From: an uncultured Arenicella sp.
GTDB taxonomy: Bacteria > Pseudomonadota > Gammaproteobacteria > Arenicellales > Arenicellaceae
NCBI GenBank assembly: GCA_937974565.1
Contig: CALJWL010000059.1
Span: 1-34,151 of the forward strand
Length of the DNA stretch: 34,151 bases
Reading direction: 5' to 3'
Within the stretch, counting starts at the first letter, position 1, and each line of letters opens with the position of its first letter. A program made the position numbers and the translations under genes. Below are positions 4,099 to 9,977 of the stretch, in pieces. The notes under the pieces were generated by a model that saw nothing but the letters and a program-made list of their open reading frames with translations, searched no databases and had not been told where the DNA came from.

Positions 4099-4617
4099 TT
4101 ATTGCGTATGGTCTTTAAATAAACCTATGGCTTTAGGTTTGGCAAAATCGGCTACCGTGCCACTGTTCTTTGTTATCTGAGCCCAACGCTCTTGAACAAA
4201 CTCAATTTTAATTACCGCGGCGGTTGGCAAATTCACTATCTTGTCATCGGCACCCAAATTGGATAAATGATTAATCGTTTCGGTGGCTGCTGGATTATGA
4301 GTAACGACCGCAATGTGGTCCTTATCTTCCGGCAGTTGATACACTGCGTCTAACAATTCAAGGCAACTAAACGTGTACAGACTTTCGTCGACTTCCAAAG
4401 GTACATTGGTGTATTGGTGAATACTGACCGCGTAGTCCAGCGCTCTGGTGGCCGTACTTGAGACAATCAGTTCGATCTCTTTAAAGTTGGATCGAATGAA
4501 TTTAGCCATAACCACCTTATCCCGTTCCCCTCTGCCGTTCAAGGGACGGTCATGATCCCTCAAGTTTGGATTAGACCAACTCGATTTGGCATGTCGTATA
4601 AGATAGAGAGTTTTCAT
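4099..4617 (-). CDS. SixA-type histidine phosphatase
   Basis: A histidine phosphatase (phosphoglycerate-mutase-like fold) of the short SixA type, 172 residues. The catalytic start is LYLIRHAKSSW with R8 and phospho-accepting H9. A second arginine, R58, sits in SSTATRALDYA, and the second histidine, H107, in IAVVTHNPA. SixA removes phosphate from phosphohistidine in HPt or PTS-related proteins, but substrates of individual homologues vary, so I give no gene symbol. No partner kinase is adjacent. It is cytosolic, with no signal peptide. It lies on the same strand as the PDZ/anti-sigma/sigma genes but is separated from them by 254 bases with hairpins, so it is probably a separate transcript. Confidence 0.9.
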   Translation of the reverse strand: MKTLYLIRHAKSSWSNPNLRDHDRPLNGRGERDKVVMAKFIRSNFKEIELIVSSTATRALDYAVSIHQYTNVPLEVDESLYTFSCLELLDAVYQLPEDKDHIAVVTHNPAATETINHLSNLGADDKIVNLPTAAVIKIEFVQERWAQITKNSGTVADFAKPKAIGLFKDHTQ

Positions 4618-4747
4618 CAGTTACCCCGCAGCTTATCACACCTCGGCCGCACTCAAAAACAGCCTCAATAAAGAAAATAGGGCTCTAAATGAGTAACCCC
4701 ACTGTTCGCAAAGTAAAAGTCAGACATGCTATTTTCCAATGTGGTTG

Positions 4748-4840
4748 GGGCGGTTCAACAACGCTTGAACCGTCCACCCTTGTCATTAAAAAATAACGTT
4801 TACATCATTTTTTAACCACGACTTACCCAGTCGTTGTTAA
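4748..4840. repeat. Two inverted repeats between the PDZ gene and sixA-like gene
   Basis: Two hairpin-forming repeats lie in the 254-base gap. The first has perfect 8-base arms CGGTTCAA and TTGAACCG at 4751-4758 and 4765-4772 around a 6-base loop. The second has 11-base arms at 4812-4822 and 4830-4840 with one mismatch and a 7-base loop. Neither is followed by a clean T-tract on the minus strand. They could still end the sigma/anti-sigma/PDZ transcript or protect its 3' end; this is inference. Confidence 0.4.
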
Positions 4841-4871
4841 GCCTTCAAGCAAGCCAAGCACACCCAATGGT

Positions 4872-5456
4872 TTAGCGCTTTACCTCTAACGTATAAGCTG
4901 GATGGCTTAATGACCCAACCGTTACGTCTATTTCTAACGTCGTTCCAGCGCGAATAAGCTCTATTTTAAGAACGTCACCAACGTCCATGTTTTTCACCAC
5001 ATCCCAGTAAGCGTATACGTGTTCTTTGTTGCCTTCTTTATTCATAGAAACATCGTTGATCGATGTTATTAAGTCTCCCGTTTTTAACCCGTTTTTATCC
5101 GCTTGAGAATCTGGCGTAATGCACGTAAGTCTAACGCCTTTATTTTCTATATTGGAACACACACCAATAAATGGCTTGATCACCGCTGGGGATGTAACCA
5201 CGACTGACTTTTCACCGCTCATATCCAACAGTTTTTTAGCTAAAAAACTGATCTCTTGCATAATCTCTTGTTTCTTATCTTGTTTTTCTTTTTTGGATTT
5301 AGAGTAAGATTTCGCTTCGTTATGCGATTCGTTTTTTTCATACAGCTTAGATTTTTCATCAGCCGACAATGTGAAGCTCATACTCAGCAACAATCCAACC
5401 AACATACTTCGCATAATTGAACGCTTATACAAGCGTCCCAAACAAAAGATATTCAT
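4872..5456 (-). CDS. Secreted PDZ-domain protein of the ECF sigma operon
   Basis: With the ATG at 5456 the protein is 194 residues. The open frame reaches 5492, but a Shine-Dalgarno AAGGTG sits seven bases before the 5456 ATG. Residues 1-32 form a signal peptide: basic KRS, a hydrophobic core around MLVGLLLSMSFTL, then a SADE cleavage area. Residues 33-65 are Lys/Glu/Ser-rich and charged, probably helical. About 94-183 is a PDZ domain, with a FIGVC carboxylate-binding loop, then KNGLKTGDLITSIND and a beta-rich end. No protease catalytic domain is present. As third gene of the cassette it most likely acts in the periplasm or envelope, perhaps sensing or presenting a signal to the anti-sigma factor, but nothing proves that. 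Confidence 0.85.
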   Translation of the reverse strand: MNIFCLGRLYKRSIMRSMLVGLLLSMSFTLSADEKSKLYEKNESHNEAKSYSKSKKEKQDKKQEIMQEISFLAKKLLDMSGEKSVVVTSPAVIKPFIGVCSNIENKGVRLTCITPDSQADKNGLKTGDLITSINDVSMNKEGNKEHVYAYWDVVKNMDVGDVLKIELIRAGTTLEIDVTVGSLSHPAYTLEVKR

Positions 5457-5462
5457 AGTAAT

Positions 5463-5468
5463 CACCTT
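5463..5468 (-). promoter_or_regulatory. Ribosome binding site of the PDZ gene, overlapping the anti-sigma stop codon
   Basis: AAGGTG on the minus strand lies seven bases before the ATG at 5456 and shares two bases with the anti-sigma stop codon (5467-5469). This decides the PDZ start and implies translational coupling between the two genes. Confidence 0.7.
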
Positions 5469-6237
5469 AAAACTCACCGCTACTGGAAGCAACTTGATTC
5501 GTGTAATACAACTGGTTTAACTCAGTGAGCGCGTCAATACGCGCCGCCCACAAAGCCTTAATTTGCTCATAACTTATGTCATCCGTAGACTCACTTTCGT
5601 GAATCTTTTCATCAACTAACATAAGCCGCCATTGCAATCGTTCGACCGTCGACTGATCTGACAGCGTTAAGACACTATTGCGCGCGGCCACTTGCTGCAA
5701 CACACTCTCCAAGCCCCGCGAATTATCCATCAAACTTTGAATGCTTGCTTGCAACGCTTGAGTCTCCACTCTTGAGCCTTGCTGACCATGAAAAGTATAC
5801 AAACTCACCGCACCCGTAAACATAACTGCGGCGGCCAAACTGTAAATAGCACTGTTAATCGAAGTCCAAAATGACGGCTTTAGCGCCAAGTGGCCACTGA
5901 GTTGATCACCATGCGATTGAGGCCCAAAAAACGTTTTGTCACGAGGGACATAAGCCTCAGTGTTAACGTGCCCAAATTCGACTGATGACTGGTTTTCTAA
6001 TTGAGTTTCTAACTTAGTCCAAACAGCTGATGGCACAGGTAACTCAGCCTCAAACAGTAAGGCTTCTTGCAAGGACCGCGCAGTGCAATGAACTTCTTCC
6101 AATCGCGCCTGACAAAATACACATTCATCCACATGCGCTGCCACGGCAGAGATGTCGCCATCGCGTATCGCCACCAACTCTTCAAGCAAGGCGTGTTCGT
6201 TCGGCTCCACATTAGTATTGTGTGTTGAATCACTCAT
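5467..6237 (-). CDS. Zinc-finger transmembrane anti-sigma factor
   Basis: 256 residues. The N-terminal region holds the ZAS/zf-HC2 motif H35-x3-C39-x2-C42 (HVDECVFC), the zinc site of anti-sigma factors that clamp ECF sigma factors. A linker (about 60-125) leads to one transmembrane segment at about 128-147 (SLAAAVMFTGAVSLYTF). A mostly helical C-terminal domain of about 105 residues follows, expected in the periplasm. The topology, cytoplasmic clamp plus periplasmic sensor, is the RseA-like arrangement. The gene follows the sigma gene by 91 bases and directly precedes the PDZ gene. The sensor half has no motif I recognise. It would hold the sigma factor at the membrane until a signal, possibly proteolysis, frees it; that mechanism is inferred from the family. 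Confidence 0.88.
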   Translation of the reverse strand: MSDSTHNTNVEPNEHALLEELVAIRDGDISAVAAHVDECVFCQARLEEVHCTARSLQEALLFEAELPVPSAVWTKLETQLENQSSVEFGHVNTEAYVPRDKTFFGPQSHGDQLSGHLALKPSFWTSINSAIYSLAAAVMFTGAVSLYTFHGQQGSRVETQALQASIQSLMDNSRGLESVLQQVAARNSVLTLSDQSTVERLQWRLMLVDEKIHESESTDDISYEQIKALWAARIDALTELNQLYYTNQVASSSGEF

Positions 6238-6328
6238 AAGTTTCTCGTAGTTTCATGGGCTCTTTCGGGCTTTAATAAAGCTCGCCATCGCCACTATACC
6301 TAAATCGGTTTTAAGCTATGTTCATTGC

Positions 6329-6946
6329 TTACACCATTTGCATGTTCAATGACGCTTTTTTTGCCAGTAACTTAAAAGCACGATGGGTTATCGACTTTGA
6401 ATAGCTGGGTGACTTATTCACCAATACGGCTATCTCATCGTGGGTATAGCCCTCTATCTCTTTTAGCCACAGCACCAATCTCACATCACTGGGAAGGCTC
6501 TCTAGCATCTTCGACAAATCGTGTTGACTGTTGAACAACTCCGCCATGTTCGATTGCTTCTCATGGTTCGCTCCAACGGCTTGTGTTTCCTGATAATTGG
6601 TAAACTCGTACTCATCAGTCGATAAGGTGTCGCTGTGTTTTTTACGCTTACGCAAATACATCAAACACTCGTTTACCGCTATTTGGCGTAGCCACATACC
6701 AAACGGTGCGCGAAACCCAAAAGACCCAACTTTATCGAAAAGCTTGAGAAAAATGCTCTGCAGCAAATCCTCGGCACAATGGGGGTCTCGGCATATTCCG
6801 TTGGCTAGCGTATAAATAGCTTGAGCGAACATTTTATACAACTCACTGTGCGCACCCATATCACCACCTTGGGCGCGACGAACTAGACCCTCAGGTACAT
6901 CCTGTTGGAAACGCTGATATTGAATCGTCGTACTCTGGCTATGCAT
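6329..6946 (-). CDS. ECF-family RNA polymerase sigma factor
   Basis: With the ATG at 6946 the protein is 205 residues, normal for an ECF sigma factor. The frame is open further upstream, but the added residues do not look like sigma sequence; the ribosome site at 6946 is weak. Region 2 spans about 18-102, including AEDLLQSIFLKLF and the promoter-melting helix APFGMWLRQIAVNECLMYLR. Region 4 spans about 143-196 (SLPSDVRLVLWLKEIEGYTHDEIA core) with an unusual recognition helix, KSPSYSKSITHRAFKLL, in place of the common GTVxSRLxRAR. An acidic linker separates them. It heads the sigma/anti-sigma/PDZ cassette and probably autoregulates it. Whether this is an RpoE-equivalent envelope stress factor cannot be told from sequence. 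Confidence 0.9.
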   Translation of the reverse strand: MHSQSTTIQYQRFQQDVPEGLVRRAQGGDMGAHSELYKMFAQAIYTLANGICRDPHCAEDLLQSIFLKLFDKVGSFGFRAPFGMWLRQIAVNECLMYLRKRKKHSDTLSTDEYEFTNYQETQAVGANHEKQSNMAELFNSQHDLSKMLESLPSDVRLVLWLKEIEGYTHDEIAVLVNKSPSYSKSITHRAFKLLAKKASLNMQMV

Positions 6947-7147
6947 GATTTTAATGATGCCGTAAAAATGGGCGAGGTCGCAAAGAATTTGAAAAATTTG
7001 CGAGGAAAAGCCCGCATTCGAACAAATCCCCTCTTCACGTGACACCCTCTGGCCCAAAAAAACACGATCCTTGGCCGTTTTAAGCTTTAATTACTCATAA
7101 TCTGCTCTAACAAGCCACACAAACTCCCACGGAAGCATCAATGAAAC

Positions 7148-7176
7148 TTTCTTACAAAACTGGGGCACGGTATAAT
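7148..7176 (+). promoter_or_regulatory. Putative ppc promoter
   Basis: A perfect TATAAT lies at 7171-7176. The -35 position 17 bases upstream is a poor TTTCTT at 7148-7153. Transcription would start near 7183, which would leave almost no leader before the TTG at 7185 but about 29 bases before the GTG at 7212. Confidence 0.45.
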
Positions 7177-7211
7177 TCAGCGGTTTGAAACCAATATTCG
7201 GTAGTATTCAC

Positions 7212-9977
7212 GTGAATCCCCCTATTAGTGCCCTCGGCGAAAATGCCAAACTGTTACCCGATTTACTGGGTGAAGTAATCTTAGAACAAGAAGGCCAAGC
7301 CGTTTTCGATGCCGTTGAACTGTTAAGAAAAGGCTTTATTCAGCAACGCCAGCAAGCCAACGCGCAAACGCATGACGAGCTAATTCAGTCCATAGAAGCC
7401 ATGGACATTGATTCAGTGGATCGGGTAATCCATGCCTTCAGTACATTTTTTCATCTGGCTAACATTAATGAGGAGCAAGCAAACCAGCACGCGCGAATAC
7501 AGCGTGAAGAAGCAGGGGAAACTTGGTCAAATTCCTTCTTAGATACGGTTACCCGATTTAAGCAAGAAGGTAAAAGCCTTGAGGAAGTACTAAAACTCAT
7601 AGAAAACCTGAATTACTACCCGACGTTCACAGCCCACCCAACCGAGGCAAAACGCCCGATTGTACTGGAGGCGTTACAACGCATACACAAAGAGTACCAG
7701 GCGCTAAACAACGGTCATGTTCCTGAAGCTGAAATTGCCGAATACAGACATCGTTTAAAGGCGATGATCCAAATCTTTTGGAAAACCGAAGCAATTCGAC
7801 CCGCAAAGCCTACTGTGTATGATGAAATTGAAAACTCCTTATACTATTTCCGTGAGAGTATTTTCGCCTGTTTGCCCGAAATTTACCGCGATTTAGAAAG
7901 TGCGATTAAGCATGTTTATCCGGAAGCTCGTGGTGACTCACTGAATCTGCCTAAAATTGTGCAATTCGGCACCTGGGTTGGTGGTGACCGGGATGGCAAC
8001 CCGTTTGTTACTCCTGAAATCACTCGCAACGCTTTACGCATGCAACAGTTGGAGGTGCTTCAGGAATACACTCGTCGTGTTGAACATTTGAGCAAAATTT
8101 TCACCCACAGTGCGGACCAAGTAACGCTGTCTCCAGACTTTGTCAGTTCCATGGAGCGCGATGAAATTCGCATGACAAAATACCTAGGTCAAAAGCACAT
8201 TACCGAGCCGTATCGCCGTAAACTGACTTTCGTTAAATTGCGATTGGAAAAAACCATTCATCAAGTTGAAACTCACCTTGGTGATGCCACGCCGTTCTTT
8301 GATCCGCTGGCATTTAAAAACGAGGCCGAGTTTCGCCAAGAAATCATGTTGGTGCGCGATTCACTAAGGCATCACAACGAAGGCAACATAACGCGTGGCA
8401 GCCTAAAAGCGCTATTACGCATACTTGATACCTGCGGCTTTTATCTATCCAAGATGGATATTCGCCAAGAATCCACTCTGCACTCGCAGGCGATTCACGA
8501 AATTGGCTTGACCTTGGACGAGCCGATTAACTACTTCTCAATGAGTGAGTTCGAAAGGCAAGCGTGGCTAACAGAGCGCCTTCTCGAAACCGAAGCGCTG
8601 TCGTATGACCGCCGTCAAATCACCATTCAAAGTGCTGATATTATCGAAGTCTTTGAGTTGATGAGCGATATGCGTGAAGAAGTCTCAAAGGACTGCTTCG
8701 GCAGCTATATTATTTCAATGACTCACGAGGCCAGCCATTTACTAGAAGTGGCGTTACTGGCCAAAATGTCTGGGCTGATCATCGCCGACAAAAACGGTAA
8801 AATCGAAAGCCAAATACACATCGCACCGTTATTCGAGACCGTCAAAGATTTAGAACACGCTGAGCCCACTCTTGAAAGTTTATTTCAAAACCCAGTGTAC
8901 CGCCAGCTGCTTGACTTCACGAACGACACGCAAGAAATCATGCTCGGCTATTCGGATTCTTGTAAAGATGGTGGCATCTTGGCGTCTAGCTGGAATCTCT
9001 ACAAAGCCCAACAAAACATTGTGTCGGTCAGCACCAAACACAACATTCATTGCTTATTATTCCATGGCCGTGGCGGCACCATTGGTCGTGGCGGTGGCCC
9101 AACACACGAAGCCATTCTGAGCCAACCCAAAGGCACGGTGCAAGGCGGCATCAAGTTCACTGAGCAAGGGGAAGTCTTATCATTTAAGTACAACTTTCAA
9201 GACACCGCTCGCTATGAATTAACCGTGGGCATCACTGGCCTGATGAAAGCCAGCGCCTCTGAAAGCGTGACCGACAAGCCTGAGCATGTGGCCATGATGG
9301 AGCAGCTTACCGAGCAAGGTGAAGCCGCCTTTCGTAAGCTCACTGATGATAATGTTGCCACCATGCAATATTTCTACGAGACCACTCCGTCCAGCGAAAT
9401 TGCGTTATTGAATATTGGCTCTCGACCATCACACCGCAAAAAAGCCGATTATTCTAAGAAGTCTATTCGCGCTATAGGCTGGGTATTTGGTTGGTCACAA
9501 TCACGGCAAAATATTCCAGGTTGGTACGGACTGGGAAGCGCCTTGCAACACGCCATCGAAAACGGTGGCCTAGCCACTTTGCATGACATGCAAGAGAACT
9601 GGCGCTACTTCCGCACGCTGCTCAGTAACTCACAAATGGTCATTCTAAAAACAGATCAAAAAGTGGCGGCTGAATACGCTAAGTTGTGCAGTGATGAAGG
9701 TATCGCTAACGATACCTACGACACGATATCCGGTGAATACAAGCTAGCCATAGCACAAATTTGTGAAGTGACTGGCGAGAATGAAATGATGGCCGATTTT
9801 CCAGAAATTGGTCAATCTGTGCGCTGGAGAAACGCCTATTTAGACCCTCTAAACTATATTCAGATACTGCTACTAAGACGGCTAAACCAAGCCGACAACC
9901 GCATGGAGTCTCCGTGGTTAAAACCAGCCTTAGACAGTATTAATGGCATAGCCACCGGACTTCGCAATACTGGGTAA
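7212..9977 (+). CDS. ppc: Phosphoenolpyruvate carboxylase
   Basis: Carboxylates phosphoenolpyruvate with bicarbonate to oxaloacetate, refilling the TCA cycle in the cytosol. All hallmark motifs are present: TFTAHPTEAKRP near residue 140 with the catalytic histidine (about H142), GGDRDGNP at about 257-264, and the mobile loop FHGRGGTIGRGGGPTHEA near 617. The conserved C-terminal GLRNTG end is complete. With the GTG at 7212 it is 921 residues, slightly longer than the 883 of E. coli. The frame is also open from a TTG at 7185, but the -10 box at 7171-7176 sits too close to that codon, so I prefer GTG, giving an N-terminus that aligns with the E. coli protein. A strong hairpin follows, so it is monocistronic. 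Confidence 0.96.
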   Translation: MNPPISALGENAKLLPDLLGEVILEQEGQAVFDAVELLRKGFIQQRQQANAQTHDELIQSIEAMDIDSVDRVIHAFSTFFHLANINEEQANQHARIQREEAGETWSNSFLDTVTRFKQEGKSLEEVLKLIENLNYYPTFTAHPTEAKRPIVLEALQRIHKEYQALNNGHVPEAEIAEYRHRLKAMIQIFWKTEAIRPAKPTVYDEIENSLYYFRESIFACLPEIYRDLESAIKHVYPEARGDSLNLPKIVQFGTWVGGDRDGNPFVTPEITRNALRMQQLEVLQEYTRRVEHLSKIFTHSADQVTLSPDFVSSMERDEIRMTKYLGQKHITEPYRRKLTFVKLRLEKTIHQVETHLGDATPFFDPLAFKNEAEFRQEIMLVRDSLRHHNEGNITRGSLKALLRILDTCGFYLSKMDIRQESTLHSQAIHEIGLTLDEPINYFSMSEFERQAWLTERLLETEALSYDRRQITIQSADIIEVFELMSDMREEVSKDCFGSYIISMTHEASHLLEVALLAKMSGLIIADKNGKIESQIHIAPLFETVKDLEHAEPTLESLFQNPVYRQLLDFTNDTQEIMLGYSDSCKDGGILASSWNLYKAQQNIVSVSTKHNIHCLLFHGRGGTIGRGGGPTHEAILSQPKGTVQGGIKFTEQGEVLSFKYNFQDTARYELTVGITGLMKASASESVTDKPEHVAMMEQLTEQGEAAFRKLTDDNVATMQYFYETTPSSEIALLNIGSRPSHRKKADYSKKSIRAIGWVFGWSQSRQNIPGWYGLGSALQHAIENGGLATLHDMQENWRYFRTLLSNSQMVILKTDQKVAAEYAKLCSDEGIANDTYDTISGEYKLAIAQICEVTGENEMMADFPEIGQSVRWRNAYLDPLNYIQILLLRRLNQADNRMESPWLKPALDSINGIATGLRNTG

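Follow-up and report, generated by a model that had tools for sequence, protein, structure and literature searches.

The closest described counterparts of the locus reported here are the sigma-E/RseA/RseB system of E. coli, which is joined by DegS, and the AlgU/MucA/MucB system of P. aeruginosa, which is joined by AlgW. In both, as at our locus, an ECF sigma factor, a transmembrane anti-sigma factor and an exported third protein are encoded in one operon. The PDZ domains of DegS (PMC8103513) and AlgW (PMC8545111) recognise outer-membrane proteins that are misplaced, by reading their C-termini, and RseA is bound by RseB (PMC8103513, PMC8545111). A PDZ domain that reads C-termini has its place in the DegS and AlgW circuits as well (PMC8103513, PMC8545111); here, a PDZ domain is found in the cassette itself.

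The likeness ends with the third gene, which unlike that of the sigma-E and AlgU systems codes for a PDZ protein without a match to the RseB/MucB family. Unlike in DegS and AlgW, this PDZ domain is not fused to a protease, and the cassette sigma factor is not a canonical RpoE/AlgU, scoring 66 bits with the RpoE equivalog TIGR02939 where 236 are required. The Pfam families of RseA and RseB have no match in any of the three cassette proteins. The contrast with RpoE/RseA/RseB drawn in the first-pass annotation is supported. Among the matches listed by a literature search that mostly covered papers outside subscription journals, none described an operon of ECF sigma, anti-sigma and PDZ genes; none is described in the passages found in PMC8103513, PMC8545111 and PMC6085468 either, and a text find in PMC7406223 returned no match. 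Since the cassette recurs in relatives, it may well be a sensor of envelope stress whose third component is unusual.

The window, by which we mean the whole stretch of 34,151 nucleotides analysed, is contig C59 of an assembly that comprises 72 contigs and 3.37 Mb. On its minus strand follow, in this order, the genes of an ECF sigma factor of 205 aa (6329..6946), a transmembrane anti-sigma factor of 256 aa with an HxxxCxxC N-terminus of the zinc-finger type (5467..6237) and an exported PDZ protein of 194 aa (4872..5456), whose N-terminus is of the signal type as judged by sequence. Three co-directional genes had been proposed at exactly these positions and were confirmed; a chance arrangement is unlikely, for 15 of the 18 genus genomes repeat the gene order. 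For the PDZ gene a 206-aa frame opening with TTG was considered as well, and the ATG at 5456, 10 nt past the stop codon of the anti-sigma gene, was preferred as start. The gap between the sigma and anti-sigma genes measures 91 nt in the window (6238-6328), whereas none of the 14 genus relatives exceeds 30 nt; promoter and Rfam scans of this gap gave no element. Around the cassette, Rfam at gathering score yielded no match in 4600-7300, and the counts of sigma-70 promoters and terminators in 4600-7200 were no higher than in shuffles.

The sigma protein has two Pfam matches over cut-off, to Sigma70_r2 at E 2.3e-12 and to Sigma70_r4_2 at E 3.8e-10, and its 77.6 bits against TIGR02937 (cut-off 42.9) make it an ECF sigma factor, that is, a member of group 4 of the sigma-70 family. 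RpoE as defined by TIGR02939 was found over cut-off in none of the 18 genus genomes, some of which are only 78-90% complete, and in 1 of 14 control genomes. The helix of region 4 that the first-pass annotation called atypical turned out to be the mark of a sigma group: S[YF]SK[ST] occurs in all 25 cassette sigmas, including ten from more distant genomes of the class, and in none of 17 further ECF sigmas that the genus encodes. In a tree with these 17, a branch supported at 98/98 sets all 25 apart from them, although the tree is midpoint-rooted only and several long branches call for caution on the deep order. As judged by motif and tree, the cassette sigmas form one group, which the ECF Hub classification may already include.

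Just upstream of the sigma gene lies a putative ECF promoter, proposed to be autoregulatory (6955..6982, minus strand, with the exact match at 6956-6982). It consists of the -35 element TGCGAC at 6977-6982, a spacer of 16 nt and the -10 element GCATC at 6956-6960, with an A at 6955. The pattern TGCGAC-N16-GCATC precedes 25/25 cassette sigma genes, 23 times exactly and twice with one mismatch, and the spacer is 16 in all of them. Within the genus the site is exact before 14 of 15 sigma genes and has one mismatch in the remaining one (all within 60 nt of the start), and nine of the ten distant cassettes are exact over 11 bases while L149 has GTATC. In three loci (L105, L109 and L150) the site falls just before or inside an over-long ORF, and there we assumed a start further in. 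In a control of 162 other ORFs of at least 150 aa from the same genus loci, taken from both strands and with chance ORFs included, none carried the motif with up to one mismatch in the 60 nt upstream. Sixteen ORFs with SYSK in their product had been set aside from this control; eleven of them have an exact site, one a site with one mismatch and four a site with six. This promoter sequence common to all 25 cassettes, found by sequence comparison, is a finding beyond the first-pass annotation, and it is presumably the one that the cassette sigma uses.

No second exact copy of the motif exists in the window, and one conserved promoter stands before the sigma gene, so that nothing at the level of sequence points to separate transcription of the three genes. 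The start codon of the window sigma lies 8 nt past the -10 hexamer, and the measured start codons of the cassettes lie 7-12 nt past it (L105 is outside the measured set, and for L052 the script gave an earlier, out-of-frame ATG at 2). Because the promoter is so near to the start codon, the sigma mRNA is probably near-leaderless.

The anti-sigma protein has no family in Pfam (best E 0.062), and its match to the NCBIfam model 'antisigma' (E 3.9e-5) is below cut-off. Like ZAS (HxxxCxxC zinc) anti-sigma factors it carries H15, H35, C39 and C42 in its cytoplasmic domain, and these putative zinc ligands are invariant in the alignment of all 15 genus members. It departs from the ZAS proteins in the missing Pfam match and in that, on reading the alignment by eye, HxxxCxxC is absent from 6/10 distant anti-sigmas though the remainder aligns. 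A structure model of low confidence (mean pLDDT 60.1) contains a helix at 123-147, of membrane type by its sequence, followed by helices at 155-186, 192-217 and 223-253. The predicted periplasmic domain is thus helical (155-253), and the tail ends SGEF. The initial description of a transmembrane ZAS anti-sigma with a helical periplasmic part outside any Pfam family agrees with these data.

The tail deserves a closer look, as its hydrophobic end had been taken as a clue for PDZ binding. In 23/25 cassette anti-sigmas the C-terminal residue is large and hydrophobic, compared with 6/25 of the sigmas, 5/23 of the PDZ proteins and 6/25 hand-picked other window genes, sets in which many rows are close relatives. 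A better control is offered by the TM-bearing proteins encoded directly after other ECF genes of the genus, which were called by script with a rough hydropathy test; none of their neighbours matched in the PDZ protein search. Fourteen of these 16 anti-sigma candidates have a hydrophobic end; by eye, ten belong to the family of a second ECF module (10/10 hydrophobic), and of the other six, four end likewise. Because 14/16 controls share it, the hydrophobic tail fits PDZ recognition but is not specific to the cassette, and we rejected it as proof. The PDZ protein may bind misfolded proteins or the anti-sigma C-terminus, as the first-pass annotation suggested; what is supported of that interpretation is the three-gene unit unlike RpoE/RseA/RseB.

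The third protein matches Pfam PDZ_2 (E 3.7e-8), and up to an E-value of 1 Pfam lists solely PDZ families, with no protease and no MucB/RseB domain among them. Its AlphaFold2 model (mean pLDDT 82.4) shows a long helix at 40-80 and a single PDZ domain at about 84-193. With one long helix, one PDZ and no trypsin-like domain in 194 aa, the protein is not an HtrA/DegS protease, and the earlier claim that it lacks a protease domain was borne out by both family search and model. The Foldseek list is headed by PDZ domains of DegS (4rqy_B, Z 13.6, rmsd 2.1, 87 residues aligned), and the peptide-bound DegS PDZ 6ew9_C follows with Z 13.5, rmsd 2.0 and 86 aligned, many other HtrA PDZs being within 1 Z of the top match. 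As modelled, the domain has the HtrA-type PDZ fold, similar to those of DegS, DegP, DegQ and HtrA2 with Z between about 12 and 13.6 for alignments of roughly 80-90 residues. Unlike the HtrA PDZs, it stands alone, is preceded by the long N-terminal helix and carries two cysteines, Cys100 and Cys112, that are invariant in 14/14 genus sequences. Their positions have no cysteine counterpart in six longer PDZ forms, as read by eye.

To follow the cassette through the genus, anti-sigma and PDZ proteins were searched independently in 109 genomes of the order, 18 of them from the genus. The anti-sigma was found in 15 of the 109, all 15 in the window's genus, and the PDZ search picked out these very genomes, at E 3.8e-12 or better. 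Sigma, anti-sigma and PDZ genes follow in identical order in 14/14 relatives examined, with the PDZ gene of G008 cut by a contig end. Absence of the PDZ gene from most relatives, which would have spoken against the first-pass interpretation, was not seen in the genus: all 15 genomes with the anti-sigma carry the PDZ gene beside it. The remaining genomes, G002, G007 and G014, have neither an anti-sigma nor a PDZ match, and the sigma profile finds at best weak matches there (2.8e-25, 1.6e-23 and 2.2e-12 versus 2.8e-101 for the window gene). The neighbours of the cassette mostly differ between genus genomes: only G006 has the PEPC/SixA surroundings in common with the window, and common flanks also occur within subsets of the other relatives.

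Profile searches at the level of the class (369 genomes) and of the phylum (398 genomes) extended the picture. Ten distant cassettes have the same order (G274, G288, G201, G438, G381, G120, G432, G472, G738 and G851, with the PDZ protein of G201 cut by a contig end). Most were found via PDZ profiles, which makes the presence of the PDZ gene outside the genus an unfair test, and its occurrence in 10/10 of them was dropped from the case for co-occurrence. G288, G381 and G438 are also matched with the anti-sigma profile alone, and all three have the PDZ gene. Genus and distant anti-sigma profiles align over 166 columns that include the periplasmic helices (97.8%, E 1.1e-12); the PDZ profiles align with 99.1% and E 2e-18, a similarity that taken alone is a weak argument. 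The anti-sigma profile matched 19/369 class genomes, namely four genus members, three cassettes and 12 others, and in the two of these 12 that were examined (G274:C8 and G294) there was no PDZ match and the sigma profile reached only about 1e-9.

The distant PDZ proteins are longer, with about 330-360 aa and a second PDZ-like segment in the six that were aligned; in the one run through Pfam (L106) two PDZ stretches were counted. The PDZ profile matched 12/369 class genomes, where the matches in G233, G319 and G419 are frames of 457-530 aa, and the phylum search, whose 398 genomes include an unstated share of other classes, gave four matches, all in the window's class. A profile of the long form at 1e-20 matched 9/369 class genomes: eight full cassettes and G125. 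In the latter, a lone one-PDZ relative of the long protein (L148:4975-5562) lies next to genes resembling queA/tgt, and the 10.5 kb covered there contain no match to the sigma or the anti-sigma; it is possibly a decayed cassette. At L105, L106 and L107, the cassette stands just before a gene that we take from its sequence to be queA-like.

Our preferred reading, to which we assign a probability of just under one half (about 0.48), is that the cassette is an autoregulated envelope-stress switch with the PDZ protein as periplasmic co-regulator of the anti-sigma. At rest, the anti-sigma would keep the sigma factor at the membrane, and the PDZ protein, with a peptide groove of the DegS type and in the place of RseB, would guard the periplasmic domain and the free hydrophobic tail of the anti-sigma. 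Exposed C-termini of unfolded exported proteins might then compete for the groove or alter the complex of PDZ protein and anti-sigma, upon which general envelope proteases would cleave the anti-sigma. The freed sigma factor would transcribe its own operon from TGCGAC-N16-GCATC, perhaps together with a few exported peptidases (M13, DUF885).

Alternatively, the PDZ protein could be an output of the switch, a periplasmic holdase or adaptor for misfolded exported proteins made together with an autoregulated sigma. We regard this as rather unlikely, if worth weighing: its gene is the last in a unit with one conserved promoter, the regulon candidates below are exported peptidases or lipoproteins, and the PDZ relative of G125 does without a sigma or anti-sigma match nearby. 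However, PDZ protein and anti-sigma keep together in 15/15 genus genomes and are both missing from the same three, where the sigma-profile matches are weak too, a pattern that argues against this alternative.

The promoter pattern also offers a view on further targets. Outside the cassette, exact sites number 48 in the 15 cassette-bearing genus genomes versus 31 for the reversed control pattern, an excess that is modest and uneven among genomes. The window's genome has three such sites (four including that of the cassette) versus five for the control, and the three cassette-less genomes have five versus two. We examined 40 of the 48, leaving out three in G015, one in G016 and four in G017; 29 of the 40 lie inside a stop-free stretch of at least 200 codons, which in G011 and G012 is the frame of the downstream gene. 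An M13 peptidase was matched in 8/18 genus genomes, seven of them cassette-bearing, and in the window's own genome none was found at the cut-off used. Exact sites precede the M13 genes of G016 and G017; those of G004 and G001 have one-mismatch sites (11/13 positions), a score equalled by the best of 30 shuffles for G004. In G009 the M13 gene follows 58 nt after the PDZ gene, G008 and G013 have an M13 gene with no promoter site, and the M13 gene of the cassette-less G007 has a one-mismatch site. Among 71 matches to DUF885 lipoprotein genes, 30 were scanned and sites appeared only in G011 and G012; in G012 another DUF885-like gene is divergent to the sigma gene. A regulon of exported peptidases (M13, DUF885) is proposed only tentatively. 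In the window's genome, an exact site outside long ORFs was also noted 95 nt before a glucose/sorbosone-dehydrogenase-like gene with an export-type N-terminus (L215:347-1594).

That the PDZ protein is an adaptor which brings a periplasmic protease to the anti-sigma and so promotes release, as in a site-1 protease split from its PDZ sensor, seems distinctly improbable to us. In favour are its fold, nearest to that of the site-1 protease DegS (with other HtrA PDZs tied), the lack of a protease family in the PDZ protein itself, and an M13 gene that in some genomes adjoins the cassette or is preceded by the promoter motif. Against it, no protease has a constant link: M13 was matched in only 8/18 genus genomes, and the window's own is not one of them.

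Returning to the PDZ protein as co-regulator, one may speculate how it arose. Where a canonical RpoE is missing, the C-terminus-reading PDZ of a site-1 protease might have become a separate protein under control of the sigma factor, which binds the anti-sigma and unfolded envelope proteins competitively; the single-PDZ form of the genus, with a possible Cys100-Cys112 disulfide, could add redox sensing. We consider this split of sensor and protease unlikely as a whole. The module itself is well defined by its PDZ partner, its promoter, the group to which its sigma belongs and an anti-sigma whose periplasmic domain has no name yet. It occurs in a genus where no RpoE was found over cut-off, and through it the ways in which such bacteria might detect misfolded envelope proteins become open to test. 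Its promoter, whose spacer stays at 16 nt from Arenicella out to the distant members of the class, also forms with the sigma a candidate for an orthogonal pair.

Across the genus (loci L124-L147 and L262-L291), anti-sigma candidates are generally hydrophobic-ended, 14/16 with ten in one family, which may indicate a common PDZ-type protease that reads their tails. A periplasmic domain common to the cassette anti-sigma and the second module was considered and rejected, as only the region near and across the membrane helix aligned (78.2%, 1.8e-5; 20.6%). This second recurrent ECF cassette of the genus encodes an ECF sigma, a membrane anti-sigma candidate and an exported DUF4097 protein. It is represented by L152:5211-7280 (G000:C32), the one locus run through Pfam for the DUF4097 match, and L151:3159-5181, L153:5639-7732 and L050:3812-5821 look like it.
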